Below, piece after piece: positions 7,736 through 25,494 of a stretch of 33,014 nucleotides of DNA. Within the stretch, counting starts at the first letter, position 1. Every line of letters starts with the position of its first letter. This DNA comes from an uncultured Pseudomonadota bacterium. Its GTDB lineage: Bacteria > Pseudomonadota > Gammaproteobacteria > Enterobacterales > Succinivibrionaceae. The position numbers and the translations under genes were made by a program. The notes below the pieces were generated by a model. It was not told the DNA's origin and did not search any database. It was given only the letters and a program-made list of their open reading frames with translations. The stretch covers positions 1 through 33,014 of the forward strand of contig ONIT01000019.1 in assembly GCA_900317945.1 (NCBI GenBank). The letters run 5' to 3'.

Positions 7736-7751
7736 CATGACTTTGATCACA
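7736..7751 (+). promoter_or_regulatory. CRP-like site upstream of ABC/creatininase operon
   Basis: CATGA-CTTTGA-TCACA matches the TGTGA-N6-TCACA consensus at eight of ten half-site positions, with AA in front and GA before TCACA as in strong sites. Catabolite control of a nitrogen/carbon scavenging operon would be sensible, but this is pattern only. Confidence 0.35.
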
Positions 7752-7787
7752 CCTTATCGCAAAAGGCCTTCTGAATGGAAAATTGGC

Positions 7788-7803
7788 TGGCACGGTTTTT
7801 GAG
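7788..7803 (+). promoter_or_regulatory. Sigma54-like promoter element
   Basis: TGGCACG-GTTT-TTGAG matches the -24/-12 consensus (TGGCACG-N4-TTGCW) except that the -12 GC reads GA. It would start transcription near 7814, 28 bases before the proposed ABC start. The -12 mismatch lowers confidence. Confidence 0.35.
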
Positions 7804-7841
7804 TTATAGCTTTCCGTTATACATCAGATATCAGTCAGGCA

Positions 7842-8960: not shown

Positions 8961-8999
8961 GGAATTCATACAGAGACCAAACCGTCAAAGGAGAGCGCC

Positions 9000-10074: not shown

Positions 10075-10134
10075 TCCTTCGGGCAATTTCCGGGGCGGCC
10101 CGGCCGCCCCATCTGTTTCATGAGGATGTGACTT

Positions 10135-10989: not shown

Positions 10990-11002
10990 GGAGGAATGAG
11001 CC

Positions 11003-11764
11003 ATGCTGCATATATTCGTATTCCTGGTCCTCATCGCGATAATCGCTCCGGCGCTCGTCATCGTGCCGCAGTCGTTCACCTCGCTGAACTACTTCGTCTA
11101 CCCGATAAAGGAATTCTCCCTCAAGTGGTACCAGAAGTTCTTCGAGAACCCCGAGTGGATCACCTCGCTTGAGCGCTCGCTCCTCATCGCCGTCTGCGTC
11201 GCTATTTTCGCGACCTTCATCGGCACGCTTGCCGCGCTCGCGGTCAACAAGCTCAACTTCAAGGGAAAGAGCGTGTTCCTCAACATCATGCTCACCCCGA
11301 TGATCGTGCCGGTCGTCATCACCGGCGTGGCCCTCTACGCGTCCTTCGCCAAGATCGGCCTCAACAACTCCATTCCGGGACTGGTGCTCGCCCACAGCCT
11401 GCTCGCGATCCCGATGGTGTTCCTCACCATGTCCACGGCGTTCGCCCGCTTTGACCAGAACCTGGAGCTTGCCGCCATGTCGATGGGATCGACCCCGATA
11501 GGCGCGTTCTTCAAGGTAACCGTCCCGGGCGTCAGGGCCTCGCTTGTCACCTCAGCGCTGCTCTCCTTCGTCACCTCCCTTGACGAGGTGGTCGTAACCA
11601 TCTTCGTCTCCGGCGCCAACACCAAGACGCTGCCGATGGTCATGTGGGAGAACCTGCGCACCACCATCAACCCGACTCTGGCGGTGGCCGCGACGTTCCT
11701 CCTCGTCCTCACGCTGGGCATGTATGTCATCAAGGAAATTGTAGAGTCGAGAACCAAGGGCTGA
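11003..11764 (+). CDS. ABC transporter permease, PotC-like
   Basis: The second channel subunit has 253 residues. It opens with a long hydrophobic helix (MLHIFVFLVLIAIIAPALVI) and then VPQSFTSLNYFVYP, a common PotC-type start. Further helices lie at LLIAVCVAIFATFIGTLAAL, VFLNIMLTPMIVPVVITGVA and SLLAIPMVFLTMSTAF. The ATPase-docking EAA loop is LAAMSMGSTPIGAFFKVTVP. The late helix around ALLSFVTSLDEVVVTIFVSG is typical of PotC/PotI permeases. An excellent SD (aggagg) precedes the ATG after nine bases. It is followed after 31 bases by the amidohydrolase, which supports co-transcription and a shared substrate. Confidence 0.9.
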   Translation: MLHIFVFLVLIAIIAPALVIVPQSFTSLNYFVYPIKEFSLKWYQKFFENPEWITSLERSLLIAVCVAIFATFIGTLAALAVNKLNFKGKSVFLNIMLTPMIVPVVITGVALYASFAKIGLNNSIPGLVLAHSLLAIPMVFLTMSTAFARFDQNLELAAMSMGSTPIGAFFKVTVPGVRASLVTSALLSFVTSLDEVVVTIFVSGANTKTLPMVMWENLRTTINPTLAVAATFLLVLTLGMYVIKEIVESRTKG

Positions 11765-11795
11765 TTGCCCTGCTGCAGAGGTTAAAGGGATAAAA

Positions 11796-13055
11796 ATGTC
11801 TGTCACGCTTTATGAGAACGCACGCCTCAACGGCGCTGCTGAGCTTACCGCAATCGCCGTCTCCGACGGCCGCTTCCTGAAGTTCGGGAAGGCTCAGGAT
11901 CTTGAGCACGAGTTTCCGGACGCAAAGAGGGAGGATCTGGGGGGCAATGTCGTCTGCCCTCCGTTCGCCGACGCGCATATCCACCTGGACTATGTCTACA
12001 CCGCGAGCCTCCCCACCCATGAGACCTCCTCGGGCACGCTCTTCGAGGCCATCGACAACTGGTCTGACTCCAAGGCGAAGCTGAGCGCCGACGCCATCCG
12101 GAGCCGCGCGCTGAAGGCCGTGAAGATGCAGATCTCCCACGGCGTGCAGTATGTCCGCACCCATGTCGACGTTACCGATCCGAAGTTCACCGCGCTCAAG
12201 GTGATGCTTGAGCTTAAGGAGCAGCTTAAGCCCTACATGCAGATCCAGATCGTGGCCTTCCCCCAGGAGGGATACTACGCCTACAAGGGCGGCGACGAGC
12301 TCGTTGAGGAGGCCCTTAAGATGGGCGCCGACGTCGTGGGCGGCATCCCCCATTTCGAGTTCACCCGCGAGGACGGCGTGCGCTCGGTTAAAAAGGGCTT
12401 CGAGCTTGCCGAGAAGTACGATAAGCTCCTCGACTTCCACTGCGACGAGACCGATGACGACCAGTCCCGCTTCGTCGAGTCAATCTGCGCGATGACCTAC
12501 TACGACGGCCTGCAGGGCCGCACCGCGGCGTCGCACACCTGCGCGATGGGCTCCTACAACAACGCCTACGCCTTCAAGATGATGTCGAAGTTCAAAAAGG
12601 CGCAGCTCAACTTCATTGTCTGCCCCACCGAGAACTGCTACCTGCAGGGGCGCTATGACTCCTATCCGCGCCGCCGCGGCATAAGCCGGGTTGACGAGCT
12701 TGACCAGAACGGGCTCAACGTCTCGTTCGCGCAGGACTCCATCTCGGATCCCTGGTACCCCCTCGGAAACGGCAACCTGATGCACCAGCTGGACTTCGGG
12801 CTCCACCTCTCGCACATGATGAGCGTAGAGCAGATCTCGAACTCGCTGCGCTTTGTTACGACCAACGGCGCGAAGACCATGTGCGTCGGCGACTACGGCT
12901 TCAAGGAAGGCAACAGCGCGAACTTCGTGGTACTTGACGCCGACAACGTGTTCGACGCCGTGCGCAACACCGCCTCCACCATCCTCAGCGTGAGGAACGG
13001 CGAGGTGATCATGAGGAAGCAGCCTGAGAAGGTCCTTACGGAGTATGGTTTTTAA
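11796..13055 (+). CDS. CodA-family amidohydrolase (cytosine/creatinine deaminase-like)
   Basis: This 419-residue amidohydrolase is very close to E. coli cytosine deaminase along its length: SGTLFEAIDNW, GVQYVRTHVDV, QIVAFPQEG, DVVGGIPHFEFTRE, ASHTCAM, LQGRYDSYPRRRGISRV and DPWYPLG. Metal ligands and catalytic residues are H61 and H63 (HIHLD), Q157, H215 with E218 (HCDE), H247 and D314. CodA has a second Asp directly after that last ligand which contacts cytosine; here it is Ser315. Bacterial creatinine deaminases belong to the same family. With a creatininase as the next gene, creatinine iminohydrolase activity (creatinine to N-methylhydantoin plus ammonia) is my favoured reading, and cytosine or isocytosine the alternative. 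It has no signal peptide and is cytoplasmic. SD aaaggga lies before the ATG. It is 12 bases upstream of the creatininase gene. Confidence 0.85.
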   Translation: MSVTLYENARLNGAAELTAIAVSDGRFLKFGKAQDLEHEFPDAKREDLGGNVVCPPFADAHIHLDYVYTASLPTHETSSGTLFEAIDNWSDSKAKLSADAIRSRALKAVKMQISHGVQYVRTHVDVTDPKFTALKVMLELKEQLKPYMQIQIVAFPQEGYYAYKGGDELVEEALKMGADVVGGIPHFEFTREDGVRSVKKGFELAEKYDKLLDFHCDETDDDQSRFVESICAMTYYDGLQGRTAASHTCAMGSYNNAYAFKMMSKFKKAQLNFIVCPTENCYLQGRYDSYPRRRGISRVDELDQNGLNVSFAQDSISDPWYPLGNGNLMHQLDFGLHLSHMMSVEQISNSLRFVTTNGAKTMCVGDYGFKEGNSANFVVLDADNVFDAVRNTASTILSVRNGEVIMRKQPEKVLTEYGF

Positions 13056-13066
13056 GGAGAGTTGAA

Positions 13067-13810
13067 ATGCCAGTCATGCATGAGATCAGAAGGCCCCAGT
13101 TTGAGCAGAGCCTCGACAAGGTTGTGATTATCCCGGTCGGCTCGACCGAGCAGCACGGGCCGCACCTTCCACTGGGTGTTGACACCTATATTGCAGAGGG
13201 CATCTCCGAAATCCTCGCGGAGAAGACCGGCGCCATCGTCGCGCCCGCCTTCAGCTACGGCTGCAAGTCAAAGCCCCTCTCAGGAGGCGGCCCGCTCTTT
13301 AAAGGCACCATCGACCTCAACGGCACTACCATGATCTCCCTCATGTACGACGTGCTCTGCGAGTTCGCCCGCGACGGGATCAAGAAGGTCTTCGTCAACA
13401 ACGCCCATTTTGAGAACCAGGCCTTCCTGGACGAGGCCATGGACCTCGCGACCCGCGAGTTCCCGGAGCTTAAGTGCGTGCAGTCCAACTGGTGGGACGT
13501 CCTTGACCAGAAGACGACCGACGAGATCTTCTCCGACGTGCCGTTCCCGGGCTGGGCGCTCGAGCACGCGGCCATCACCGAGACCTCTCTCATGATGTAC
13601 CTGAGGCCCGAGCTCGTGAAGAACGATCTCATCCCGGAGGATGTCACCGCGAAGGCCCTCCCTTACTCGGTGTACCCGCCGCGCCGCGGCATGGTTCCGG
13701 AGTGCGGGGCGCTCGCGTCCCCGAAGGGTTCGACCCCGGAGAAGGGGAAGCTGATTGTCGACAAGGCAATCGAGGGCTTCCTTAAGATTTTTGAAGCGGA
13801 ATTTGCCTGA
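13067..13810 (+). CDS. Creatininase (creatinine amidohydrolase family)
   Basis: This 247-residue enzyme matches Pseudomonas creatininase, not just the broad family. Metal and catalytic residues are in register: E28, H30 (STEQHGPHLPLGVD), D39, H114 and E116 (NNAHFEN), W143, W163, H167 and E172 (GWALEHAAITETSLM). The offset to my recollection of the Pseudomonas numbering (E34, H36, D45, H120, E122, then W154, W174, H178, E183) is a constant 6 and then 11. The late SVYPPRRGMVPECG...ASPKGSTPEKGK also follows that enzyme. It reversibly converts creatinine and water to creatine, using Zn/Mn. SD aaggaga lies before the ATG. It is in an operon with the CodA-like deaminase and the importer. No creatinase, sarcosine oxidase or N-methylhydantoinase is in the window, so the pathway beyond creatine or N-methylhydantoin is not visible. 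Confidence 0.85.
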   Translation: MPVMHEIRRPQFEQSLDKVVIIPVGSTEQHGPHLPLGVDTYIAEGISEILAEKTGAIVAPAFSYGCKSKPLSGGGPLFKGTIDLNGTTMISLMYDVLCEFARDGIKKVFVNNAHFENQAFLDEAMDLATREFPELKCVQSNWWDVLDQKTTDEIFSDVPFPGWALEHAAITETSLMMYLRPELVKNDLIPEDVTAKALPYSVYPPRRGMVPECGALASPKGSTPEKGKLIVDKAIEGFLKIFEAEFA

Positions 13811-13825
13811 GCGCAAGGAGCAGCT

Positions 13826-14434
13826 ATGAGCAATTACGTTATCACTGTCTCGAGACAGTTCGGCTCCCTCGGGCGGCCTATTGCCCAGAAAATTGCCCAC
13901 CGGCTCAACATCGGCTATTACGACCGTGAGCTCATCGAGAAGGCCGCCTCCATCATGAACGAGGACATGCGCGAGGTGTCGCCCCTGGATGAGAACATCC
14001 ACCTGCCCTTCGCCAACGCGCTCTTCCCCCTCGGGATCGGCACCGGATCGCATCACCGGAGGCTCTTCAAGGTTCAGGAGAGCCTCATCCAGGAGTGCGT
14101 GCTGAAGGAGGACTGCGTCATTGTCGGGCGCTGCGCGGACTACATCCTCCGTGACTATCCGCGCCGCTTCAACGTGATGATCTTCGCGCCGTTCGATGTA
14201 AGGGTGAAGAACTCCGTGAACTCGCTCAGGATCCCCGAGTACGAGGTCGATGACTACGTGAAGGAAATCGACCGCGCGCGCGACTATTACCACAAGTTTT
14301 TCACGGATGAGCCGCTCACCACGGTGAAGTACCGCGACCTGCTCGTTGACTCCTCCGCCATGACGCAGGACGAGGCGGTTGACCTCATCATCCGCGCGGC
14401 GTCGGCGAAGCTGAAGTTCCCGCTGCTGTTCTGA
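13826..14434 (+). CDS. Cytidylate kinase-like family protein
   Basis: This 202-residue protein has the cytidylate kinase-like (Cytidylate_kin2) opening ITVSRQFGSLGRPIAQKIA, where the phosphate loop is usually REYGSGG. It then has IGYYDRELIEKAA, VIVGRCADYILRD, FNVMIFAP and RARDYYHKFFT, all in the order seen in that family. It probably phosphorylates a nucleotide or small molecule, but family members are poorly characterised and often travel with transporters. The phosphate loop has Leu in place of a conserved glycine (GSLG), so activity is not certain. It follows the creatininase after 15 bases with SD aaggag, and I read it as the last gene of the operon. Its role in creatinine use is unknown; it could be a regulator or salvage enzyme. 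Confidence 0.82.
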   Translation: MSNYVITVSRQFGSLGRPIAQKIAHRLNIGYYDRELIEKAASIMNEDMREVSPLDENIHLPFANALFPLGIGTGSHHRRLFKVQESLIQECVLKEDCVIVGRCADYILRDYPRRFNVMIFAPFDVRVKNSVNSLRIPEYEVDDYVKEIDRARDYYHKFFTDEPLTTVKYRDLLVDSSAMTQDEAVDLIIRAASAKLKFPLLF

Positions 14435-14453
14435 GCAGCAGAATCTGCATCAG

Positions 14454-14487
14454 GGCCCGGCTGTCTCTTGGGGATGGCCGGGCCTTT
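14454..14487 (+). terminator. GC-rich hairpin at operon end
   Basis: GGCCCGGC (14454-14461) and GCCGGGCC (14477-14484) form a perfect 8-bp stem followed by only TTT. It is a plausible end of the importer/creatininase transcript, but the short T tract makes it weak. Confidence 0.45.
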
Positions 14488-14498
14488 CCGTATCTGCC

Positions 14499-14639
14499 GT
14501 GTCCTTACCTGATCTGCCGGGCTGCCTATCCGTTGGCGGAACCATTGATGAGGCAGCGGCAAATGCCGGGGACACAAAGCGTGAGTGGATCGCGGCAGCT
14601 ATTGAGAACGGATATCCCATCAGTGAGCCGGGCCGCTGA
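14499..14639 (+). pseudogene. Remnant of a HicB-family antitoxin
   Basis: Read from the GTG at 14499, the 46-codon frame contains SLPDLPGCLSVGGTIDEA, then REWIAAAIENGYPISEP, and a stop at 14637. This is the HicB-type core PDLPGC...GxTxxEAxxN and the tail WIxxAxExGxPIPxP. The N-terminal strand of HicB is missing and no ATG or SD precedes it; the hairpin ending the creatininase operon lies directly upstream. No HicA toxin is recognisable nearby. I see it as a 5'-truncated relic of a type II toxin-antitoxin unit. It marks the edge of the accessory island. Confidence 0.6.
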
Positions 14640-14662
14640 GAATTAATTGGCAGGCTCCGAAC

Positions 14663-14783
14663 CCAAGATTTTGGACACCTCAATTCCAAGATTTTTGGGA
14701 TCAATCCCAAGGTGAAATCCAAGATTTTTGATGTCAATCCCAAGGTGAAACCAAAGATTTTTGGGATCAATCCCAAGATTGTC
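14663..14783 (+). repeat. 33-bp tandem array (about four units) with embedded palindromes
   Basis: Units begin CCAAGATTTT at about 14663, 14686, 14719 and 14751, the last three spaced 33 and 32 bases. A typical unit reads CCAAGATTTTTGGGATC then AATCCCAAGGTGAAAT. Inside the units TTGGGAT-CA-ATCCCAA is a 7-bp palindrome, present twice and degenerate once. It sits just upstream of the first GTPase promoter candidate. Confidence 0.75.
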
Positions 14784-14831
14784 CATGACATGGGGTACAC
14801 CTCACTCATCAAACCCAAGTTTTAGTGCGTC

Positions 14832-14859
14832 ATGACATAAAAAAGTGACTCAATATACT
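14832..14859 (+). promoter_or_regulatory. Candidate sigma70 promoter for the GTPase island
   Basis: ATGACA (14832-14837) and TATACT (14854-14859) are spaced 16 bases apart, and each matches the consensus at five of six positions. It would give a leader of about 240 bases before the first GTPase. Confidence 0.45.
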
Positions 14860-15108
14860 TTTTTCAGATCCCAGACGCCAGCCCTGATTGACAGCCATTC
14901 TGCATGCTCATAAGATGAAAGGCATAAACTTACCTATGAACCTTGGAAAGGCAGCAGCGGCTGCAGTGCGCCGGTGGCCGATGGAGAGCGCTTGTTTCTG
15001 ATGATGCTCATGGCGGAAACAGCAGATTTTGCTGCATTTTCTGCGCTCAGTGAGCGGTTTCAGGATTAAGCCTCCATTGAAAAGAAATTGAAGTGGGGAT
15101 GCAGGCCT

Positions 15109-16065
15109 ATGAGTGATGAGAAGAAGTTTTTTGAGTCCATGGAATCAGACATTCTGAATGCCAATATTCCAGAGGAAGAGAAAAGCAAGCTGATGAAGAA
15201 TCTTCTGAACTTAAAGAAGCAGAAGATCAACCTGATGATCACCGGCGCGACAGGGGTCGGCAAGAGCTCGACGATCAATGCGCTTTTCAACACTGAGAAG
15301 GCTAAAGTCGGCGTAGGCACAGACCCTGAGACCATGGAGATCACCAGATATGAGCTGGACAACCTTGTCCTGTGGGACAGTCCGGGTCTTGGAGATGGCA
15401 AGGAGGCAGACAACCGCCATGCCAAGAACATCATCAATAAGCTCTATGAAAAGGATGAGCACGGAAACCTTCTAATCGATCTGGTGCTTGTGATCCTGGA
15501 CGGCAGCACAAGGGATCTTGGAACGTCCTATGAGCTCATCAACGAGGTGATCATTCCAAATCTTGGTGAGAACAAAGAGGGCAGAATCCTCATAGCCATA
15601 AACCAGGCAGATGCGGCAATGAAGGGCAGGTACTGGGATTCTGACAACAACAGGCCTGAGCCGCCGCTGCAGAAGTTCCTGGATGAAAAGGCTGAATCCG
15701 TCAAGAGAAGAATCAAGGAAGCCACCGGCCTTGAGGTATCCCCGATTTACTATAGCGCGGGCTTTAAGTTTGAGGACATGCCGCAGACCCCGCCGTATAA
15801 CCTCGCAAAGCTTCTCTACTATATCATTGAGCACACTCCCAAGGAAAAACGCCTGGTCTATGCCGAGAACATGAACACTGATAGGAGGATGTGGAAGGAC
15901 AATGATGATTACAAGAATTACCGGAAGAGCATTCTTGCGCAGTTTGGGGAAGTGGTGTCAGATATCGGCTCTGCCATTTACAACGCAGGAAAGACTGTAG
16001 TCGACACAGTATGTGACTGGGGAAGATCTGCGTGGAACACAGTAACATCAATATTCAGCTGGTAA
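15109..16065 (+). CDS. P-loop GTPase 1 of tandem array (YfjP/YeeP-like)
   Basis: This 318-residue TRAFAC-type GTPase has G1 GATGVGKSS (46-54), a switch I threonine in VGVGTDPETM, G3 DSPGLGDG (90-97), G4 NQAD (165-168) and G5 SAG (216-218). An N-terminal helix (EKSKLMKNLLNLKKQKI) precedes the G domain. A C-terminal tail (about 280-318, AIYNAGKTVVDTV then AWNTVTSIFSW) looks amphipathic and could bind membrane. The ATG at 15109 is preferred over a TTG at 15088, because GGGGATGCAGGCCTATGAG is conserved upstream of GTPase 2 as well and contains the SD. It resembles the 50S-binding-like GTPases carried on E. coli CP4 prophages. It is the first of five paralogues in a row. Function is unknown; immunity-type or membrane remodelling roles are inference. 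Confidence 0.82.
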   Translation: MSDEKKFFESMESDILNANIPEEEKSKLMKNLLNLKKQKINLMITGATGVGKSSTINALFNTEKAKVGVGTDPETMEITRYELDNLVLWDSPGLGDGKEADNRHAKNIINKLYEKDEHGNLLIDLVLVILDGSTRDLGTSYELINEVIIPNLGENKEGRILIAINQADAAMKGRYWDSDNNRPEPPLQKFLDEKAESVKRRIKEATGLEVSPIYYSAGFKFEDMPQTPPYNLAKLLYYIIEHTPKEKRLVYAENMNTDRRMWKDNDDYKNYRKSILAQFGEVVSDIGSAIYNAGKTVVDTVCDWGRSAWNTVTSIFSW

Positions 16066-16246
16066 ATTATGTCGTCAGGATGCTATTGCAGCCGCCGCAT
16101 GTGATGAATCTGGAAAGTCCGAAGGCTGCGGCCGTGGAACATTAAGCAGGTCTGTGCAGGCATGACCGCACAGAGATTGTTGGTCTGGTGAAAACACGAT
16201 TTCCGGCACTGTCTTATAAATGAAGCGAGAGCAAGGATGCAGGCCT

Positions 16247-17584
16247 ATGAGTAATGAGAAAAAGTTTTTTGATGCCATGGAATCTGACATTATGAATGCC
16301 AATATTCCTGAGGCTGAGAAAAGCAAGCTGATGAAGAATCTTCTGCAGCTGAAGAATCAGAAGATCAATCTGATGATTACCGGCGCGACAGGCAGCGGCA
16401 AAAGCTCGACCATCAACGCGCTTTTCAACATGGATGTCGCGCAGGTTGGCGTCGGAGTGGATCCTGAGACGATGGACATCGCCGAATATGATTTGGACAA
16501 CCTTGTCCTGTGGGACAGCCCGGGACTTGGCGATGGCAAGGAGGCAGACAACCGCCATGCCAAGAATATTATCAAGAAGCTCAATGAAAGAGATGATAAA
16601 GGAAACCTCCTTATCGATTTGGTGCTTGTAATCCTGGACGGCAGCACCAGGGATCTCGGAACATCATACGAGCTGATTAACCAGGTGATTATCCCCAACC
16701 TTGGCAAGAACAATGAGAACAGGATTCTGGTTGCCATCAATCAGGCTGATGTGGCAATGAAGGGCAAATACTGGGATTATGACAATAACCGCCCGGAGCC
16801 GCCTCTTAAGAAGTTCCTTGATGACAAGGCCGAGTCTGTCAAGAGAAGGATTAAAGAGGGGACAGGCGTTGATGTGGACCCGATTTATTACAGTGCAGGA
16901 TTCAAGGAAGAAGGACAGCCTCAGACCCCTCCGTATAACCTTGCAAAGCTCCTCTACTACATCATTGAGCATACCCCCAAGGAAAAAAGGCTGTCTTTTG
17001 TTGAGAACATCAACCGTGATGAGGAGATGTGGAAGGACAATGATGATCTGAAGGATTACCGAAAGAGCATTGTTCAGCAGTTCGGGGAAACAGTAAAAGA
17101 CTGCGCGACAAAGGGCGCAGACCTTGGCGGAGATATCGGATCTGTTTTTGGAGAAACAGGGAGGGCGGTAGGCAGTGCCCTGGGCGGTCTTGTAGGAGGA
17201 GCAGTAGGTGTAGCAGTGGGAGCTGTCGAATCTGTAGTCTCTTTCTGCACGGGCGGCGGCTGCTACATCACGACCGCGACCTGCGAGGAATACGGCAAGC
17301 CAGATGACTGCTATGAGCTGACCGCCTTCCGGAATTTTCGTGACAGCTGGCTCAGAAAGCAGCCTGACGGAGAGAGGCTCATCGCTCAGTACTACCGGAC
17401 CGCGCCCAGGATAGTGAGGCTGATAAACCGCCAGCCGGACCGCAGTGAAATCTACCGCTCCATCAGGGACAACTACCTTTCAAAGTGTCTCTCATACATC
17501 GAAAGCGGCGACAACGAGAAGTGCAAGGAGCTGTACGTTGAGATGATGGAGCATCTTTATGAGGAGCAGGACAGATGGCACTGA
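16247..17584 (+). CDS. P-loop GTPase 2 with glycine-zipper segment and CFI-box-type C-terminal domain
   Basis: The 445-residue protein is built of three parts. The G domain (1-275) is nearly collinear with GTPase 1, with G1 GATGSGKSS (46-54), G3 DSPGLGDG (90-97) and G4 NQAD (165-168). A glycine/alanine-rich stretch follows (about 290-338: GSALGGLVGGAVGVAVGAV) and looks like a membrane-inserting glycine zipper. The last 107 residues start at C339 (CYITTATCEEYG) and continue with ELTAFRNFRDSWL and ERLIAQYYRTAPRIV. This resembles the CFI-box C-terminal module (C-[FY]-I-x-T-A ... LRxFRD ... YYxxSP) found at the end of many unrelated bacterial proteins. The ATG at 16247 has AAGGA nine bases upstream; the in-frame ATG at 16220 has no SD. 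The stop overlaps the start of GTPase 3 by ten bases, which implies translational coupling. Confidence 0.83.
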   Translation: MSNEKKFFDAMESDIMNANIPEAEKSKLMKNLLQLKNQKINLMITGATGSGKSSTINALFNMDVAQVGVGVDPETMDIAEYDLDNLVLWDSPGLGDGKEADNRHAKNIIKKLNERDDKGNLLIDLVLVILDGSTRDLGTSYELINQVIIPNLGKNNENRILVAINQADVAMKGKYWDYDNNRPEPPLKKFLDDKAESVKRRIKEGTGVDVDPIYYSAGFKEEGQPQTPPYNLAKLLYYIIEHTPKEKRLSFVENINRDEEMWKDNDDLKDYRKSIVQQFGETVKDCATKGADLGGDIGSVFGETGRAVGSALGGLVGGAVGVAVGAVESVVSFCTGGGCYITTATCEEYGKPDDCYELTAFRNFRDSWLRKQPDGERLIAQYYRTAPRIVRLINRQPDRSEIYRSIRDNYLSKCLSYIESGDNEKCKELYVEMMEHLYEEQDRWH

Positions 17585-18267
17585 GATTCAGCACCTATCG
17601 TGCGGATGACATAGACGCCAACCTGAGGAGGCTGCAGGTGCGGCCTCTTGACGTGATGCTCACGGGCGTCACCGGGGCGGGGAAGTCATCGACCATAAAC
17701 GCCTTCTTCCAGGAGCCGATAGCCAAGGTGGGAAGCGGAGTAGACCCTGAGACCATGGAGGCCTCCGGGTATAACCTCAACAAGTTCTTTCGGATCTGGG
17801 ATACGCCGGGCCTTGGCGACGGCGTGGATATAGACCAGATCCATAAGAAGAAAATGGTCGACCTCCTGTGCAAGACCTACAACAGCAACGGGAAGACCTT
17901 TGGGTTTATCGACATGGCGATCATTGTCGTCGAGGGCGCCAACCGTGACATGGGTACAACCTACGCTCTCCTGAATGAGGTCATTGTCCCGAATATTGAG
18001 AGCGACAGGATACTGGTTGTCATCAACCAGGCAGACGTCGCGATGAAAAGCAGGCACTGGGACAAAGGCTCCAGCGAGCCTGACAGCAAGCTTAAAGCCT
18101 TCCTCGAGGAGCAGGCGCTCTCAATCCAGAAAAGAGTGAAGGAGGCGACGGGTGTGGATATCCTGAAGCCGGTCTGCTATTCGGCAGAGTATGACTGGAA
18201 CGTCAAGGGCGTCTTTGACTTCATCATAGACCATATGCCGAAAGAAAGACGTGTTCTGAAAATGTAA
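17575..18267 (+). CDS. P-loop GTPase 3 (short, G domain only)
   Basis: This 230-residue GTPase lacks the N-terminal helix and the C-terminal extension of its neighbours. It has G1 GVTGAGKSS (31-39), switch I VGSGVDPETM, G3 DTPGLGDG, G4 NQAD, and the G5-like CYSAEYDW. The start codon lies inside the end of GTPase 2 (10-base overlap) with GGAG nine bases upstream in the coding sequence, so the two are almost certainly translated as a coupled pair. A degraded copy of the same arrangement follows GTPase 5 (see 20518-20675). It ends with PKERRVLKM, with no membrane segment, so it is probably the soluble partner of GTPase 2. The partner idea is inference from coupling. Confidence 0.83.
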   Translation: MALRFSTYRADDIDANLRRLQVRPLDVMLTGVTGAGKSSTINAFFQEPIAKVGSGVDPETMEASGYNLNKFFRIWDTPGLGDGVDIDQIHKKKMVDLLCKTYNSNGKTFGFIDMAIIVVEGANRDMGTTYALLNEVIVPNIESDRILVVINQADVAMKSRHWDKGSSEPDSKLKAFLEEQALSIQKRVKEATGVDILKPVCYSAEYDWNVKGVFDFIIDHMPKERRVLKM

Positions 18268-18278
18268 GGGGTACCTGA

Positions 18279-19226
18279 ATGAGCAGCAGAATTCTCGATG
18301 ACATTGCAGAGGAAGCCAGAAAAGGCAGTTTTGGCACAGGGGAAGACCAGGAGAGCGTCATAAGGGGCATTGAGCTCCTGAAGAGGCAGAAGCTCAATGT
18401 TGCGTTTGTCGGCGCGACTGGCGTCGGGAAAAGCTCCACCATCAATGCCATTTTCAACATGGATGTCGCGAAGGTGGGCGACTGTACGGATCCAGAGACC
18501 GCGTCAATCCAGAAGTATGAGATTGACAACATGGTCCTCTGGGATACCCCGGGCCTCGGCGACAATCCTGAAAAAGACAGACAGTATGCCGTTGAGATTG
18601 CCGGCCTACTGAAGCGAAAGGACGAGAAGGGCGATCTGCTGATTGATGAGGTCGTTGTCCTGGTTGACGGCTCGAACAGGGACATGAAGACCGCCTACGA
18701 GACAATAGAGCATGTCGTGGCGCCTTACATTGAGGATCCGAAGCGCATCATCATCGCCATCAACCAGTGCGATGTGGCGCTCAAGGGAAGGTTCTGGAAT
18801 AACGACCGCTGCGAGCCTGAGGCGCAGCTCGCTGCCTTCCTTGATCAGAAAGTCACGTCCGTACGGGAGAGGATTGCAGGATCCACCGGCATTGCAACGA
18901 GCCCGATGTATTACTCGGCGCTCCATCATTACAACATCTCGAAGCTGCTTCTTGCCATGATCATTGCCGTGCCTGAGAAAAAGCGTTTCCTGTTCACCGA
19001 CAGTCTGAACAGGAATCCTGATGTCTGGAAGAAGAATGACGAACTGGAAACTTACAACCAGAAGATTCAGCAGGAAGTGAAAGGCTCGCTGTCAAAGGCT
19101 CTCGAGGGGGCGGCGGCCGGCGCTGCGGCAGGCGCATCGATAGGCCGCTTTATTCCGGTAATCGGTCCGGTAGCCGGCGCGATAGCAGGCGCAGCCCTGG
19201 GCTTCCTGGGCGGGCTGCTCGGGTAG
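18279..19226 (+). CDS. P-loop GTPase 4 with C-terminal glycine zipper
   Basis: This 315-residue paralogue is more diverged than 1, 2 and 5. G1 is GATGVGKSS (45-53), switch I is VGDCTDPETA, G3 is DTPGLGDN, G4 is NQCD, and G5-like YYSALHHYN follows. The C-terminal 45 residues are a Gly/Ala-rich stretch (AAAGAAAGASIGRFIPVIGP then AGAIAGAALGFLGGLLG) typical of membrane-inserting glycine-zipper segments. It starts 11 bases after GTPase 3 ends, so it is probably part of the same transcript. The N-terminal sequence MSSRILDDIAEEARKG is unlike the EKKFF start of 1, 2 and 5. Without a database comparison I cannot tell whether it joined the array separately. Confidence 0.82.
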   Translation: MSSRILDDIAEEARKGSFGTGEDQESVIRGIELLKRQKLNVAFVGATGVGKSSTINAIFNMDVAKVGDCTDPETASIQKYEIDNMVLWDTPGLGDNPEKDRQYAVEIAGLLKRKDEKGDLLIDEVVVLVDGSNRDMKTAYETIEHVVAPYIEDPKRIIIAINQCDVALKGRFWNNDRCEPEAQLAAFLDQKVTSVRERIAGSTGIATSPMYYSALHHYNISKLLLAMIIAVPEKKRFLFTDSLNRNPDVWKKNDELETYNQKIQQEVKGSLSKALEGAAAGAAAGASIGRFIPVIGPVAGAIAGAALGFLGGLLG

Positions 19227-19444
19227 GCAATTATGGCCAGCCATGCTTTGACAGAAAAACAGTACGGCAGCGGCCGGCAGTCCGCTGCTCATTCCTTTCT
19301 GCGTCCCGCGGCAGCGTATGGGCAGGTTTAAGTACTGCAGAATGTTTATTAACCATCCCGTTCAGCTGTTCTGCGTCATGCTCTCTTATTTTTCTGCATT
19401 GCAGAATCAAATGAAACGTAAGTGAGGAATCTGGTTCATGCTAG

Positions 19445-20527
19445 ATGAAAAAGTTTTTTGATGCTATGGCATCCAGCATTCTTGACGCTGATATTCCGGA
19501 AGCAGAAAAAAACAAGCTGATGATGACTCTTCTGCACCTTAAAGAGCAGAAAATCAACCTGATGATTACCGGCGCGACCGGGAGCGGCAAAAGCTCAACA
19601 ATCAATGCGCTTCTCGGTACGGAGGAATCGAAAGTCGGCGTCGGCGTGGATCCTGAAACCATGGAGATCAGAAGATATGACCTCGACAATCTTGTGTTAT
19701 GGGACACTCCGGGTCTGGGAGACGGAGCAGAACCTGACGACAGATATGCCAAGAACATCATCGAGAAACTCAATGAAAGGGACGAGAACGGAAACTTTCT
19801 GATAGATCTGGTACTTGTGATCCTGGACGGCTGCATAAGAGATCTTGGAACAGCATATAACCTGATCAATCAGGTGATCATCCCAAGTCTGGGAGAGGAC
19901 AATAAGAACAGGATCCTGATAGCCATAAATCAGGCAGACATAGCCATGAAGGGCAGGCACTGGGACTCTGCCAATAACAGGCCGGAACCGCCCCTTCAGA
20001 AGTTCCTGGATGAGAAAGCTGAATCCGTCACAAGAAGGATCAAGGAGGGGACAGGCCTTGATGTATCACCGGTTTATTACTGCGCCGGCTTCAAATATGA
20101 AGGCAAGCCTCAGTGCCCGTCTTATAACCTTGCAACGCTTCTGTATTACATCATTGAGTCTGTTCCAAAGGAAAAACGGCGTCCGATAACCGAGAATATT
20201 AACTGCTACATTACAACCGCGACCTGTGAGGAATACGGCAAGCCTGATGACTGCTATGAGCTGACTGCCTTCCGGAATTTTCGTGACAGCTGGCTCCGGA
20301 AGCAGCCTGACGGCGAGAGGCTTATAGCGCAGTATTACCGCACTGCGCCCAGAATAGTAAGGCTGATAAACCAGCAGCCGGACCGCAGGGAAATCTACCG
20401 CTCAATAAAAGAGAACTACCTTTCAAAGTGCCTCTCATATATCGAAAACGGTGACAACCAAAGGTGCAAAGATCTCTATGTTGAGATGATGGAGCATCTC
20501 TACAAAGAGCAGGACAGATGGCACTGA
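19445..20527 (+). CDS. P-loop GTPase 5 with CFI-box-type domain, no glycine zipper
   Basis: The 360-residue protein combines a G domain (G1 GATGSGKSS at 43-51, G3 DTPGLGDG, G4 NQAD) with the same 107-residue C-terminal domain as GTPase 2, starting at C254 (CYITTATCEEYG). The roughly 85 residues that carry the glycine zipper in GTPase 2 are absent, so the two domains join directly at ENIN-CYITT. Relative to GTPases 1 and 2, two bases are missing just after the ancestral start: the ATG at 19438, which has a good gaggaa SD, is now out of frame. The frame is read from the ATG at 19445, 15 bases after that SD. Expression may therefore be reduced. Its last codons overlap a relic of a GTPase 3-like gene. 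Confidence 0.8.
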   Translation: MKKFFDAMASSILDADIPEAEKNKLMMTLLHLKEQKINLMITGATGSGKSSTINALLGTEESKVGVGVDPETMEIRRYDLDNLVLWDTPGLGDGAEPDDRYAKNIIEKLNERDENGNFLIDLVLVILDGCIRDLGTAYNLINQVIIPSLGEDNKNRILIAINQADIAMKGRHWDSANNRPEPPLQKFLDEKAESVTRRIKEGTGLDVSPVYYCAGFKYEGKPQCPSYNLATLLYYIIESVPKEKRRPITENINCYITTATCEEYGKPDDCYELTAFRNFRDSWLRKQPDGERLIAQYYRTAPRIVRLINQQPDRREIYRSIKENYLSKCLSYIENGDNQRCKDLYVEMMEHLYKEQDRWH

Positions 20528-20675
20528 TTCACCGCCTGCCTTGCTGATGACAGCAATAACGGCCTCAGTGGACTGCGGCTGACATCCTGGCGTGATGCTT
20601 CAGGGCGTCAGCAGAGCAGGGAAGCCATCGATATAAACGCCTTATTCAGTGAGCCGAATGTAATTGTGGAGTTTC
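20518..20675 (+). pseudogene. Degraded copy of GTPase 3
   Basis: From the ATG at 20518, overlapping the GTPase 5 stop exactly as GTPase 3 overlaps GTPase 2, the DNA follows the first 150 bases of GTPase 3. It passes through MAL, a GATGACA tract, CTGATGTC-like DNA, and a P-loop-like GVSRAGKPS in place of GVTGAGKSS. It then reads ATAAACGCCTTATTC and GAGCCGA. The frame breaks after nine codons, and one base is lost in the tcga-ccataaac tract. Similarity fades near 20675. It shows that the [CFI-box GTPase + short GTPase] pair was duplicated as a unit and that one partner then decayed. Confidence 0.7.
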
Positions 20676-20846
20676 TGACTGCAGATGTGTTCGGTGATTC
20701 CTTGTCTGCTTTTCCTGCACGGCCAGGCTATTTTACTGCTCAGTCATAGCCTGTTCAGTGTGGAAACGCATCTTTCGCAGGCGCATGCCATCAGGCGGAT
20801 CCCATTCCCTTTTTAATCCGGCGGCTTATCGGGAGATCTGCCGTTA
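20676..20846. other. Spacer between GTPase island and lptM
   Basis: I see no gene or clear signal in this stretch. A plus-strand open frame at 20758-20994 overlaps the real lptM gene in another frame and has no family features. Confidence 0.4.
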
Positions 20847-20855
20847 TGCTAAAAT
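20847..20855 (+). promoter_or_regulatory. Extended -10 element upstream of lptM
   Basis: TG-C-TAAAAT is an extended -10 with five of six core matches. Transcription would start near 20862, giving a leader of about 24 bases. No good -35 is seen, as is common with extended -10 promoters. Confidence 0.4.
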
Positions 20856-20885
20856 TTCGGTGTTTTTCTACTCTCTGGAATGCCG

Positions 20886-21590
20886 ATGCCCTCATATATC
20901 CGTACGCTGGCCATTGCCTCATCACTACTCATCCTCTCAGGCTGCGGCCTCAAGGGCGAGCTTTACATGCCGCAGGAATACTATGATGAGCTGAAGGCAG
21001 AGCAGCTGAGGATCGCGGCTGAGCAGGCCGCCATCGCAAGGCCTGTGGCCGCAAATGTGAGGAGCGTAATAGCGAGTGCAGGCGGCACTTACACTTACGA
21101 GGCCCCTGCCGCAGGCACTGAGGCAGACAGCACGGCGCCAGAGGCCCAGGGCACTGAGGTGAAGGCAGCCGGCACTGCCGCAGCCGCTGGCACTGAGACC
21201 GGAAGCACATCGTCAGAGGCCCAGGGCGCAGAAGCGAAGGCAGACAGCACGGCATCAGAGTCCAAGGGCACTGAGGTGAAGGCTGAAGGCACTGCCGCAT
21301 CTGCTGGCACTGAGGCCGGAAGCGCAGCACCGGAGTCCCAGGGCAGTGAAGTTAAGGCTGAGGGCGCGGCAGCAGGCAGCGGAGCAGGCACTGAGACCGG
21401 CAGCAAAGCCTCAAAGCAGCGCGCAAAGGCAGTGCCTGTATGGACCGTTTTCGATGAGGCCGGCGCCTCCGCAGGCGCTGTGAGCTCTGCCATGAAGTCA
21501 TTCGCCACCAAGGCCGGGGCATCGAGCGCCGTCCCTGAGACAAAGAAGCCGAAGGCAAAGGCAGCAGGCAGCCAGGAAGGCGCTGAATAA
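20886..21590 (+). CDS. lptM: LptM (YifL)-type outer-membrane lipoprotein with long repeat extension
   Basis: The N-terminus is a lipoprotein signal ending LLILSGC, followed by GLKGELYMP. This is the LptM/YifL signature (TGCGLKGPLYFP in E. coli). LptM assists maturation of the LptD-LptE translocon. Its location before lysA and dapF is also the canonical one. E. coli LptM has 67 residues, but this protein has about 234. After residue 70 there is an Ala/Thr/Glu/Gly-rich region of imperfect repeats of roughly 25 residues (TEAGS..PE.QGTEVKAEGTAA..G) that ends in a Lys-rich tail. I prefer the ATG at 20886, which has GGA six bases before it; an in-frame ATG at 20880 would add two residues but has no room for an SD. 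The identity is firm. The function of the extension is unknown. Confidence 0.8.
   Translation: MPSYIRTLAIASSLLILSGCGLKGELYMPQEYYDELKAEQLRIAAEQAAIARPVAANVRSVIASAGGTYTYEAPAAGTEADSTAPEAQGTEVKAAGTAAAAGTETGSTSSEAQGAEAKADSTASESKGTEVKAEGTAASAGTEAGSAAPESQGSEVKAEGAAAGSGAGTETGSKASKQRAKAVPVWTVFDEAGASAGAVSSAMKSFATKAGASSAVPETKKPKAKAAGSQEGAE
21112..21416 (+). repeat. Imperfect in-frame tandem repeats in lptM
   Basis: Units built on ggcactgag (Gly-Thr-Glu) and gaggtgaaggc (Glu-Val-Lys-Ala) recur about four times with Ser/Ala/Pro-rich filler. They encode the low-complexity part of LptM and are prone to length change. Confidence 0.65.
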
Positions 21591-21619
21591 CGCGGACTGG
21601 CGCCGCACAGGTTTTCATC

Positions 21620-21665
21620 TCCCCGCAGAGGCGGGGATCACGCAGTCAAGGCGGGGATTTTCCCC
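21620..21665 (+). promoter_or_regulatory. Alternative hairpins in the lysA leader
   Basis: TCCCCGC (21620-21626) can pair with GCGGGGA at 21631-21637 (7 bp, agag loop) or with a second GCGGGGA at 21651-21657. The second GGGG can instead pair with CCCC at 21662-21665, next to the lysA SD (ctgagga). Mutually exclusive pairings beside a ribosome-binding site suggest translational control, but base pairing alone does not prove it. It does not look like a lysine riboswitch, being far too short. Confidence 0.3.
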
Positions 21666-21677
21666 TGAGGAACAGCA

Positions 21678-22934
21678 ATGAGCAAATTCAATTACAGGAA
21701 CGGCGTTCTTTACGCTGAGGATATCCCTGCAAAGTCTCTCGCAGAGAAGTACGGCACTCCGCTGTACGTCTACTCGGCGAACTCCTTCCGCGAGATTTAC
21801 AAGAACTACACCTCCGCGTCAGAGACCGCGCTTGTCTGCTACTCGGTGAAGTCCTGCAGCAGCATCGGCGTGCTCTCCCTTATGGCATCTCTGGGCTCCG
21901 GGTTCGACATCGTCTCCGGCGGAGAGCTGCAGAGGGCGCTCCGCGCCGGCGCGGATCCCTACAGGATCGTCTACTCCGGAGTCGGCAAGACCGTCGCCGA
22001 GATGGAGCTCGCGCTGAAGGCCGGCATCCTCTGCTTCAACGTCGAGTCAGAGCCTGAGCTCGAGACCCTCTCACGCACCGCTGGGCGCCTTGGCCTCAGG
22101 GCACCGTTCTCCATCAGGGTGAACCCGAACGTTGACGCGAAGACCCATCCGTACATCTCGACGGGCCTCAAGAAGAACAAGTTCGGCATCCCGGTCGAGC
22201 GCGCCGAGGCCCTCTATGAGAAGGCCGCATCCGATCCCAACCTCGAGGCCGTCGGCATCGACTGCCACATCGGCTCGCAGCTCCTTGACCTGAAGCCCTT
22301 CTCGGACGCAGCCGACAAGGTCCTCGAGGTTGTTGACCGCCTGAAGGAGAAGGGCATCACCCTGAGGCACCTAGACATGGGAGGCGGGCTCGGCGTCAAC
22401 TATATCGACGAGGTTCCGCCCGCAGCGTCTGACTACATCAGCCTGCTCTCGGGGAAGGCAGCCACGAGGGGCCTCAGCCTCATCGTTGAGCCCGGCCGCT
22501 CGTTCTCCGCCCCCTCCGGAATCCTTCTCGGCAAGGTCCTCTACCTCAAGCACGGCGCTGACCGCGAGTTCGCGATCACCGACACCGCGATGAACGATCT
22601 CATCAGGCCGTCCCTCTACCAGGCGGAGATGAAGATCGAGGAGGCGGAGCAGGATCCGGGCCTTGAGAAGAAGACCTATGACGTTGTCGGCCCAGTCTGC
22701 GAGACCGGCGACTTTTTAGGGCGCGGCAGGGAGCTTGCCGTGAGGGAGGGCTCCATCATCGCGGTAACCGGCGCCGGCGCGTACGGCTTCTCGATGTCAT
22801 CGAACTACAACTCCCGTCCCCGCGCGGCTGAGGTGATGGTCGACGGAGACCGTGAGATCCTCATCAGGAAGCGCGAGACCTTCGAGGACCTCATCAGGAA
22901 TGAGGCAGAGGTCTCCTGGACAGAGAAGGCATAA
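21678..22934 (+). CDS. lysA: Diaminopimelate decarboxylase
   Basis: This 418-residue PLP enzyme converts meso-diaminopimelate to L-lysine, the last step of lysine biosynthesis. The PLP lysine is K58 in [18 protein letters not shown], the segment [27 protein letters not shown], the phosphate-binding [16 protein letters not shown], the [13 protein letters not shown] cysteine region and [16 protein letters not shown] follow in family order. This length matches the family, and SD ctgaggaa lies before the ATG. It is followed by dapF after 16 bases, which makes the substrate of LysA, so the neighbours act in consecutive steps. The lptM-lysA-dapF order is shared with many Gammaproteobacteria. Confidence 0.96.
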
Positions 22935-22950
22935 GCCTGAAGGCAGAGAA

Positions 22951-23781
22951 ATGAGACTTAAATTCACCAAAATGCACGGCCTCGGCAACGACTTCATGGT
23001 CGTCGACGCCGTAACCCAGAAGGTCTTCTTCAATCCGGAGCTCATCAGGCGCCTGTCCGACCGGCATTTCGGCATCGGCTTTGACCAGCTCCTCGTGGTC
23101 GAGCCTCCCTATGATCCGGATCAGGACTTCCACTACCGCATCTACAACGCCGACGGCGGCGAGGTGCAGATGTGCGGCAACGGCGCGAGGTGCTTCGCGG
23201 TATTCGTGAGGCAGAAGAGGCTCACCGACAAGAAGGTCCTCCATGTCAGCACCATGGCCGGCCCCATTGTCCTCACCGTTCGCGATGACGAGCAGGTTAC
23301 TGTCAACATGGGCGTCCCTGAGTTCGATCCCGCCAAGATCCCGTTCCGCGCGCGCGAGGAGCAGAAGATGTACATGCTGAGCGCCGCCGGGGAGAACCTC
23401 CTTATGGGCTGCGTCTCGATGGGGAACCCCCACTGCACGATAAAGGTCGATGACGTCGACACCGCTCCGGTCGAGAAAATAGGAAGCGCGCTGCAGTCCT
23501 CAGAGCGCTTCCCGGAGAAGGTCAACGTGGGCTTCATGCAGGTCGTGAGCCGCGGCGAGATAAGGCTCCGCGTCTTCGAACGCGGCGCCGGCGAGACGCT
23601 TGCCTGCGGCACCGGCTCCTGCGGGGCAGTCGCGAACGGCATCAACCAGGGGCTTCTTGACAGCCGGGTAATCGTCCACCTCCGCGGAGGGGATCTGGAC
23701 ATTTCCTGGGAGGGGCGCGGGCATCCTGTGATGATGACCGGTCCGGCGGAGAGCGTCTATGACGGGGAGATAAACATTTGA
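22951..23781 (+). CDS. dapF: Diaminopimelate epimerase
   Basis: This 276-residue enzyme interconverts LL- and meso-diaminopimelate for lysine and peptidoglycan synthesis. It begins [15 protein letters not shown], the usual start. The two catalytic cysteines are C75 ([11 protein letters not shown]) and C219 ([13 protein letters not shown]), and the substrate-binding [14 protein letters not shown] and FERGAGET motifs are present. A longer open frame begins at 22852 inside lysA, but the family N-terminus and SD (ggcagag) fix the start at 22951. Its stop overlaps the TTG start of the next gene by four bases (TTGA), so the two are translationally coupled. Confidence 0.96.
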
Positions 23782-24545
23782 GCAGGCGTTCAGGCAGGAA
23801 GCAGTTCCGTGCGGTAATGGTGAGAAAGGAGGTGACCGGCGCCGACGTGCTTCAGTTCCTCCGGCGCAACCCCGGATTCCTCACCGAGCACGCCGCTGAG
23901 ATCGATCTCCCCTACGCCGACAGCGACGACGGCACCGTCTCGGTCTCCCGCATCAGGCAGGAGGCGATGAGAAAGCAGATCAGCTCGCTTTCGGAGTCGC
24001 TCTCCGACACCCGCGACATCGCTGAGGGCAACCAGGAGATCGCGGACATCTTCTTCAGGATCTGCCGGGCGGTCATCGGCGCGGAGAGCGTTGGGGAGCT
24101 CAGCAGCATAGTCAATGAGACCTGCCGCACCGAGCTCCTCATCCCGAACTCGGCAGTCCTCGCGAACGGCGGGCGCTCTGCGCCGAGGAGCGAGCCAGAC
24201 CGCAGGTTCTTCCTCTCCGGGGACATCTTCGAGGGCCTCATGGAGAGCTCCATGAGCGGGCTCAGGGTAAACCTGGGGCCGGTTCGCTCCGAGGCTGAGG
24301 CAGAGCTCTTCTTCGGCGAGTATGCCCCGATGATCAGGTCGCGCGCGCTGGTGCTCCTCGGCGCTGACGGAAAGGACGGCATCGCTGCCTTCGGGCACGG
24401 CGATCCTGACCATTACAACATGTCGCTCGGCACCGAGCTCCTCGAGGGGCTGACGGGCTTCATCGGCGCGGCGCTCGCTAAGCTCGTTGACCAGGGGCGC
24501 GACGCCGAGGGGCGGGCCATCGCGCCGATCAGCGTCGTGGAGTAG
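23778..24545 (+). CDS. DUF484 family protein (YigA-like)
   Basis: This 255-residue protein belongs to the DUF484 family, recognised by [24 protein letters not shown], the following [18 protein letters not shown] segment, the GAF-like middle ([16 protein letters not shown]-type region, 150-200) and [36 protein letters not shown]. It always sits next to xerC in Gammaproteobacteria and its role is unknown. The TTG start (23778) overlaps the dapF stop and has ggggag seven bases upstream. A perfect anti-16S sequence (aaggaggtga) lies inside the gene at about 23826-23835, after the proposed start, with no suitable start codon close behind, so I keep the TTG. An in-frame ATG at 23817 is an alternative. 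Confidence 0.85.
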
Positions 24546-24555
24546 GAGAGGGGCC

Positions 24556-25494
24556 ATGAGCGGATTTCAGGAGGAGACTGACGCTTTCCTCAGGCAGCTC
24601 AGCGCAGGGAACGGTAGGAGCGATGTAACAGTCGCTGACTACCGCGAGTCGCTCTCCATTGCCGCTGAAATCTTCACCCAGATGGGCCTTTCCTCTTTCC
24701 TTTCAGTAAGGCCTGATGACGCGAGGCTCCTTATCCTGAAGCTGGGCTCCAGCGGGAGCGGCCACGCGGCCGCCACGGTGAGGAGCCGCGTCTCAGCGCT
24801 CCGGAGCCTCTACTCCTGGGCGGTGGGGAAGGGGCTCATCGCCTCGGATCCTACCGAGGGAATAAGGCTCCCAAAGATCCCCAAGCGCATTCCCCACACG
24901 CTCACGCCTGACGAGATGAACTCGCTCCTGGACTACGGCGATCCCGCGGATCTCAACCCGGCGGATCTCCGCGACCGCGCCGCCTTCGAGCTCTTCTACT
25001 CCTCGGGGCTCCGCCTTTCGGAGCTCGCCGGGCTCAGCCTCGCTGACATTGATCTCCGGGGGCTTTCGGTGAGGGTCATAGGAAAGGGGAACAAGGAGCG
25101 CATCGTCCCTGTGACGAAGACCGCGCGCGAGGCGATAGAGGACTACCTCCCGCTACGGGAGAAAATCCTCGCGGAGCGCGGCTGCCCTGAGGAGACGGCG
25201 CTCTTCGTGAGCCGCCTCGGGCGGAGGATCTCCACAAGGGAGATTGAGAAGCGCCTTAAGCTCCTCGCGGAGAGGCAGGGCATGGAACATCCGGTGCATC
25301 CCCATATGCTCCGCCACTCCTTCGCGACGCACCTCCTGCAGTCATCCGGGAACATCAGGGCAGTGCAGGAGCTCCTGGGGCACGAGAACCTCTCCACGAC
25401 CCAGATCTACACCGACACTGACCTCTCCTATATCATGCGCGTCTATGACAGCGCACATCCCCACGCGAGGAGGAAGCCGGGGGATGACGCATGA
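24556..25494 (+). CDS. xerC: Tyrosine recombinase XerC
   Basis: This 312-residue site-specific recombinase resolves chromosome dimers at dif with XerD. An N-terminal SAM-like core-binding domain (about 1-95) is followed by the catalytic domain with R153 (GLRLSEL), K177 (VIGKGNKER), H250 and R253 (HPHMLRHSFATHLL), H276 (LLGHENLSTTQ) and nucleophile Y285 (QIYT). This is a complete catalytic set. The ATG at 24556 has gagaggggc directly before it; a longer open frame from 24487 overlaps DUF484 and is rejected. Its place after dapF and DUF484 and before a YigB-like gene identifies it as XerC rather than XerD or an integrase. The stop overlaps the next start by four bases (ATGA). Confidence 0.94.
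   Translation: MSGFQEETDAFLRQLSAGNGRSDVTVADYRESLSIAAEIFTQMGLSSFLSVRPDDARLLILKLGSSGSGHAAATVRSRVSALRSLYSWAVGKGLIASDPTEGIRLPKIPKRIPHTLTPDEMNSLLDYGDPADLNPADLRDRAAFELFYSSGLRLSELAGLSLADIDLRGLSVRVIGKGNKERIVPVTKTAREAIEDYLPLREKILAERGCPEETALFVSRLGRRISTREIEKRLKLLAERQGMEHPVHPHMLRHSFATHLLQSSGNIRAVQELLGHENLSTTQIYTDTDLSYIMRVYDSAHPHARRKPGDDA

Follow-up and report, generated by a model that had tools for sequence, protein, structure and literature searches.

A conserved, horizontally moving operon of paralogous TRAFAC GTPases as a candidate membrane-directed anti-phage or stress system

In a contig of Succinivibrionaceae lineage (ONIT01000019.1, assembly GCA_900317945.1), of which 33,014 nucleotides (nt) were analysed and are referred to here as the window, five intact paralogous GTPase genes follow one another on the + strand (15109-20527, as open reading frames), with the decayed start of a sixth behind them. 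Comparison with other genomes showed that the unit underlying this array is no random pile of paralogues, being a conserved and usually closely coupled operon of two or three genes, designated A, B and C. We hypothesize, with a confidence that stays a little short of even, that this horizontally moving operon of paralogous TRAFAC GTPases is a candidate heteromeric, membrane-directed system acting against phage or a related stress. The genes of the array and their parts are as follows (aa, amino acids; pLDDT, predicted local distance difference test).

15109-16065, + strand: GTPase A1, 318 aa; an extra A copy, G domain and amphipathic C-terminal tail, without CFI box
about 15916-16062, + strand: amphipathic C-terminal tail of A1, from the sequence
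16220-17584 (alternative start 16247), + strand: GTPase A2, 454/445 aa; the A gene belonging to the conserved operon, with glycine-rich tail and CFI box after the G domain
17102-17251, + strand: glycine-rich GxxxG membrane-type segment of A2, from the sequence; a low-confidence region of the AlphaFold model
17261-17581, + strand: C-terminal CFI-box domain of A2, modelled as a bundle of five helices (pLDDT 90)
17575-18267, + strand: GTPase B, 230 aa; bare G domain, its start overlapping the end of A2 by 10 nt
18279-19226, + strand: GTPase C, 315 aa; third operon gene, 11 nt after B, G domain and glycine-zipper tail
about 19062-19223, + strand: glycine-zipper tail of C, from the sequence
19445-20527, + strand: GTPase A5, 360 aa; second extra A copy, CFI box straight behind the G domain, without glycine tail
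20204-20524, + strand: CFI box of A5 (NCBIfam CFI_box_CTERM)
about 20518-20660, + strand: remnant of a second B gene following A5, with a frameshift and stops

An earlier note on this DNA had described five P-loop GTPases in a row with G1, G3 and G4 motifs, differing ends and one relic, and the reading frames, profile scores and motifs bear out this description. All five products passed the cut-off of Pfam MMR_HSR1 (21.9 bits) with 34.6-47.2 bits, and the G1 (GxTGxGKSST), G3 (DxPGLGD) and G4 (NQxD) motifs are invariant and intact in each of them. From the first gene to the fifth, the G domain is followed by an amphipathic tail, by a glycine-rich segment plus CFI box, by nothing, by a glycine zipper and by a CFI box, the CFI boxes of A2 and A5 being certain (E-values of 2.8e-18 and 1.7e-18 against CFI_box_CTERM). 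The relic behind A5 shares 73% identity with the start of gene B across 156 nt (E 9e-21) and its translation reaches stops after nine codons; it represents a second, defunct B gene.

When 84,980 species genomes were scanned with a profile, at least 56 loci were returned, at least about 48 of them close homologues (loci are cited below by their L numbers), and homologues occur in Pseudomonadota, Bacillota, Synergistota and Bacteroidota. Across the loci compared, the GTPase A has about 310-450 aa and ends in a C-terminal tail, in some cases with a CFI box. B, encoded beside it, consists of nothing but a G domain (about 200-240 aa), and C is a GTPase of 315 aa with a glycine-zipper tail, encoded behind B in one branch only. 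Intact and adjacent A and B genes were found in at least 22 loci of the scan, and the order A-B-C in at least seven, to which the window is to be added. Further A+B pairs are carried by plasmids of Comamonas, Photobacterium, Acinetobacter and Vibrio, and the pair is also present in L021, a genome from the same family, and in a further gammaproteobacterium. The gap between A and B mostly lies between -10 and +71 nt; the window, L041, L042 and L086 all have an overlap of exactly 10 nt between the two genes, B starting before A ends. When 12 whole genomes were searched, B was present in eight, each time beside A, and the remaining four held A-like genes only. The earlier note had read the paralogues as one candidate GTPase system, and within the A-B(-C) branch they did recur side by side, not scattered singly. 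In addition, the trees of A and B are congruent over 29 pairs (Mantel r 0.854, a value reached by none of 5000 permutations, the highest giving 0.53): A and B co-evolve, and the agreement of their trees indicates that the pair moves as a unit.

The phylogeny also accounts for the composition of the array. A, B and C fall into separate groups; the first, second and fifth genes of the array group together (Shimodaira-Hasegawa-like approximate likelihood-ratio test, SH-aLRT, 99) among A genes of Lachnospiraceae and Clostridia, most of which bear a CFI box, the third and fourth cluster with the B and C genes of those same operons, and the C genes make up a clade of their own (SH-aLRT 95). According to this placement, the window holds an ancestral A(CFI)-B-C operon (16220-19226) to which flanking A copies on both sides and the B relic have been added. 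The array is therefore not a five-component system, since two of the five genes, A1 and A5, are lineage-specific duplicates of A. The A copies are old (synonymous divergence, dS, about 1.1) and the extra ones are kept by purifying selection, the ratio of nonsynonymous to synonymous divergence (dN/dS) to A2 being 0.16 for A1 and 0.10 for A5, within a range of 0.10-0.21 over the A copies. Shared promoter DNA was sought upstream of the A copies of the window, and only about 12 nt were in common. At the sequence level, the G domain of A2 is 84% identical to that of a Lachnospiraceae protein, which indicates transfer of the family across phyla.

Several features of the proteins are consistent with a division between members directed to the membrane and a soluble partner. 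The GxxxG/A motifs are enriched in the tails of A (5.2 versus 2.3 in shuffled sequences) and of C (6.9 versus 3.6), and a glycine-zipper tail was found in none of 30 B proteins. All catalytic motifs are retained in A, B and C, and a hydrophobic residue follows G3, as is common in GTPases that hydrolyse GTP as dimers or assemblies. Position 135 is occupied by arginine in 85 of 102 proteins and by lysine in 16 of them; comparison of this arginine with the fingers of Toc34 and GIMAP7 through alignments to the Protein Data Bank (PDB) gave weak signal-recognition-particle-receptor matches only, and, as Era-type GTPases have a similar residue, no claim is drawn from it. The AlphaFold model of A2 (mean pLDDT 82) is good for the G domain and for the CFI domain, a confidently predicted five-helix bundle, and poor at the glycine segment. 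No convincing match to the fold of the CFI domain was found in the PDB, the best Foldseek hit having an E-value of 0.5 and the best VIA hit a Z-score of 7.0, a value that helical bundles also reach by chance. A CFI-box protein is encoded behind three dynamin genes on an E. coli plasmid (L032:5826-8315), so the CFI box is common to two kinds of GTPase operon.

The genomic context of the homologues was assessed with PADLOC (2023 version, E 1e-10) on 147 neighbouring proteins, taken from up to two genes on each side. The neighbours matched 126 defence families, against three among 123 genes of random Pseudomonadota regions scanned alike and 11 among 119 genes that lie, in 12 of the genomes with homologues, at a distance from the array. 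These numbers overstate the difference at the level of genes, because more neighbours than control genes were scanned and a single gene may hit many families. Location next to known defence genes is recurrent and above background, and this enrichment, which the earlier note had named as a check, is strong. WYL regulators recur beside the homologues, often at a distance of 300 nt or less, and a CARF nuclease gene lies directly downstream in L028, L049 and L084. In L031, A and B are placed between hsdS and hsdR, inside a type I restriction operon, and in L049 the order is HsdM, McrBC, A, B, CARF and patatin. Dynamin-like genes are found near L028, L070, L076 and L087. In a Synergistaceae genome (L048:1921-9015), A and B lie between viperin and a protein kinase-STAND-TPR gene; this is the sole clear viperin, as a link to viperin was rejected for L046, L047 and L051, whose radical-SAM proteins obtained a weak viperin score or none. 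As a separate observation, genes for DUF932 and YqaJ-exonuclease-like proteins recur near single or paired GTPases (L057, L068, L074, L080 and L085), an echo of yfjP-yfjQ in the CP4-57 element of E. coli.

The family is rare, with a patchy distribution over plasmids and islands: it was found in two of 369 Gammaproteobacteria and three of 299 Pseudomonadota, both counts including the window's own genome. Carriers of the operon include mobilizable and conjugative plasmids, and single A-like genes lie in CP4-57-like elements alongside radC, DUF2787 and AlpA. Carriage by phages was considered and rejected, IMG/VR holding no relatives and GenBank phages yielding a CFI-box match only. Two more distant relatives were encountered: an A-like GTPase of divergent sequence (261-282 aa, with GAPGTGKYS as its P-loop), found with the same neighbouring genes in this genome (L022:4289-5137) and in one of the same genus (L023:3735-4520), and a lone, distant relative of B, with 24% identity, among the four annotated genes of very small mobilizable plasmids (about 4.8 kilobases, kb) from Salmonella and E. 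coli, such as L151 (NZ_CP092002.1).

Among proteins of known structure, the vertebrate immunity-related GTPases (IRGs), those of mice, are the nearest. Irgb10 is the best PDB match by sequence profile (E 5.6e-10), with other IRGs also found, and in a structure comparison of the A2 model Irga6 leads with a Z-score of 14.4 over 256 residues. RbgA and YsxC chains tie with the IRGs in Z, but over 160-180 residues as against 230-256 for the IRGs, an alignment that takes in helices before the G domain; Foldseek, in turn, ranks Toc34 first. The Pfam IIGP profile (cut-off 24 bits) gave 27-38 bits in four of the five window proteins and 23.5 in B, covering only about 75 of 375 profile positions. IRGs such as Irga6/IIGP1 and Irgb10 are likewise multi-paralogue GTPases with action on membranes. 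The window proteins have two helices before the G domain, after which, in contrast to IRGs, B stops and C and A2 continue into a glycine-zipper tail and a CFI bundle, respectively; because the large N- and C-terminal helical domain of IRGs is missing, they are IRG-like and not members of the IRG family. Glycine-zipper or CFI C-termini, the NQxD form of G4 and a bacterial origin in closely spaced operon pairs set them further apart. IRG-like bacterial GTPases were noted by Bekpen et al. 2005 (PMC1297648), who could not settle their relation to the IRGs and called the origin of the vertebrate immune GTPases obscure.

A second likeness is to GIMAP/AIG1, Toc34/Toc159 and septins (paraseptins), GTPases controlled by homo- or heterodimerisation. 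In particular, soluble GIMAP7 drives GTP hydrolysis of membrane-bound GIMAP2 (PMC8201404), an arrangement that resembles A and B, although the known members of these families are eukaryotic and not encoded in operons with defence genes. The Pfam AIG1 profile (cut-off 27 bits) gave 33.3 bits for A5 and 22-26.7 bits for the other four proteins of the window. The dynamin-like Eleos system (LeoA and LeoBC) is also an operon of paralogous membrane GTPases, and the CFI box occurs on a dynamin-operon protein of E. coli plasmids as well. Nevertheless, the Leo proteins of this same genome have 565-767 aa and reach 278-390 bits against the Leo profiles in matches of more than 500 residues, whereas the window proteins match only about 60-100 residues around G1-G3 with 35-54 bits, and membership of Eleos was rejected for want of a full-length LeoA or LeoBC match. 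Elsewhere in the genome, a tandem duplicated LeoA-LeoBC pair of Eleos type lies on contig C144 (G000:C144:3000-13582, L024), and contig C138 holds further GTPases which, by their size, may be another Leo-type copy.

The relation to YfjP/YeeP-type GTPases suggested in the earlier note holds only in a loose sense. YfjP of E. coli K-12 (CP4-57), the protein with which the comparison was made, is a short GTPase with a C-terminal hydrophobic helix and adjoins a DUF932 gene (yfjQ), as do some Firmicute homologues, but it shares 27% identity over 157 aa and is encoded by a single gene with no B or C partner; it was rejected as a member of the same family and represents a distant paralogous one. The GTPase-centric conflict systems with DO-GTPases and GAP1 (eLife 2020, PMC7159879) likewise pair two paralogous TRAFAC GTPases, encoded in mobile neighbourhoods among genes of conflict type; in the present operon, the partner consists of a G domain with no tail. 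Among the clustered neighbours, no GAP1/GASH-type or zinc-ribbon gene is recurrent, though no dedicated profile search for one was made. By the features tested, the operon belongs neither to Eleos nor to the IRGs nor to the YfjP family, and it may work like the IRG/GIMAP and dynamin-like systems. No description of it was found in the open-access literature searched, whether as CFI-box, bacterial IRG/GIMAP or paired GTPases, and the term undescribed is provisional because it refers to that literature and to the 2023 version of PADLOC.

In the window itself, the array belongs to a segment that is variable between related genomes.

7509-20810, strand not applicable: variable 13.3-kb segment holding the array, missing at the same site in a same-genus genome (blastn)
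14505-14639, + strand: weak relic of a HicB-like antitoxin (C-terminus), from a motif upstream of the array
14685-14777, strand not applicable: 33-base-pair tandem repeat, 2.8 copies, upstream of the array

The window matched the same-genus contig G001:C54 by blastn only at 6644-7508, 20811-21007 and 21604-26044, and the G+C content of the array is 51%, against 57-62% in the flanks. The remainder of the segment is a cluster of transporter, amidohydrolase, creatininase and cytidylate-kinase-like genes. The product of the last of these (13826-14434) has no match in the same-genus genome, which is 77% complete, and about 31-34% identity at most in other relatives. The earlier note had described the array as flanked by a toxin-antitoxin relic and a tandem repeat; the repeat is real, and the HicB-like call is a weak one, its 15.4 bits falling below the 27-bit cut-off. 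Near the end of the window (31235-32203), a unit of 324 base pairs is repeated three times (88% matches) within a coding frame.

Based on these data, we propose that the glycine-zipper or amphipathic tail of A, and of C where present, would bind or enter the inner membrane, and that the tail-less B may pair with A or C through their G domains and set their GTP cycle, by analogy with GIMAP7 and GIMAP2. A phage-linked trigger would then shift the balance so that A or C, bound to GTP, assembles on the membrane and either infection is blocked or the cell is halted, with the CFI box as a possible helical docking or regulatory domain common to dynamin-like operons. A bolder version, which we regard as rather unlikely, would see in A, B and C the bacterial equivalent of IRG/GIMAP immune GTPases: a minimal heteromeric, membrane-directed anti-phage system of at least four phyla, in which the bare partner sets or releases the tailed ones. 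Several observations weigh against an anti-phage role. The tree contains a separate clade of single A-like genes with no B, and a partner for A is therefore not universal; the homologues in L054, L056 and L064 adjoin non-defence genes, and the array of the window has metabolic neighbours, the transporter/amidohydrolase operon, and no defence island. Moreover, a neighbourhood alone proves no function, because accessory islands carry many genes unrelated to defence. The membrane tail of A is a sequence prediction whose segment has low confidence in the model, and the heterodimer of A and B is one that we infer. No relative was found among the IMG/VR viral contigs searched, and a DNA-level search of complete E. 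coli genomes, which distant copies could escape, returned no A-B pair.

Some of the same evidence would suit a non-immune module of membrane stress or of the cell envelope, in which the paired GTPases remodel, tether or repair the inner membrane when it is under stress and travel on mobile DNA for the benefit that they bring to the host or to the element. The tails point to the membrane, many neighbours of the homologues are not defence genes, the array of the window lies between the transporter/amidohydrolase operon and the lptM-lysA-dapF block, and Foldseek also matched LeoA and the bacterial dynamin pair 5oxf, the title of which refers to membrane sensing and tethering. The excess of defence families over both controls and the rarity of the family fit immunity better, and we consider an envelope role unlikely. 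The carriage on mobilizable and conjugative plasmids, the single A-like genes in CP4-57-like elements and the layout of two genes, one membrane-type and one bare, would in turn agree with a module for the control or maintenance of mobile elements, which would aid plasmids and islands in competing with other elements or shutting them out, or would keep its carrier stable in the manner of a toxin-antitoxin pair, A being a membrane toxin restrained by B. Yet B is an intact GTPase with the fold of A and no small antitoxin, single A-like genes exist without B, and long-standing duplicates of A have been maintained without an intact extra B, so that this explanation also appears improbable. Finally, a plain expansion of housekeeping GTPases of the Era/YihA type, involved in ribosome assembly, could be read from the generic MMR_HSR1 match, from weak matches to the YsxC, YlqF and YqeH models and from the Z-scores that RbgA and YsxC chains share with the IRGs. 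It is largely excluded by scores far below the curated cut-offs of the YsxC, YlqF and YqeH families, by the patchy distribution and membrane-type tails, and by the longer alignment to IRGs than to ribosome-assembly GTPases.

If the anti-phage reading is correct, the operon would represent a second kind of bacterial multi-GTPase immunity besides the dynamin-like Eleos, made up of a short GTPase with a membrane tail and a partner that lacks one, and it would provide a functional context for the CFI box, shared with dynamin-type operons. It would also offer a small two-gene model for the way in which pairs of GTPases set off assembly on a membrane. Furthermore, the origin of IRG/GIMAP-type immunity would become open to experiment through a testable prokaryotic relative, which in one locus stands beside a prokaryotic viperin.

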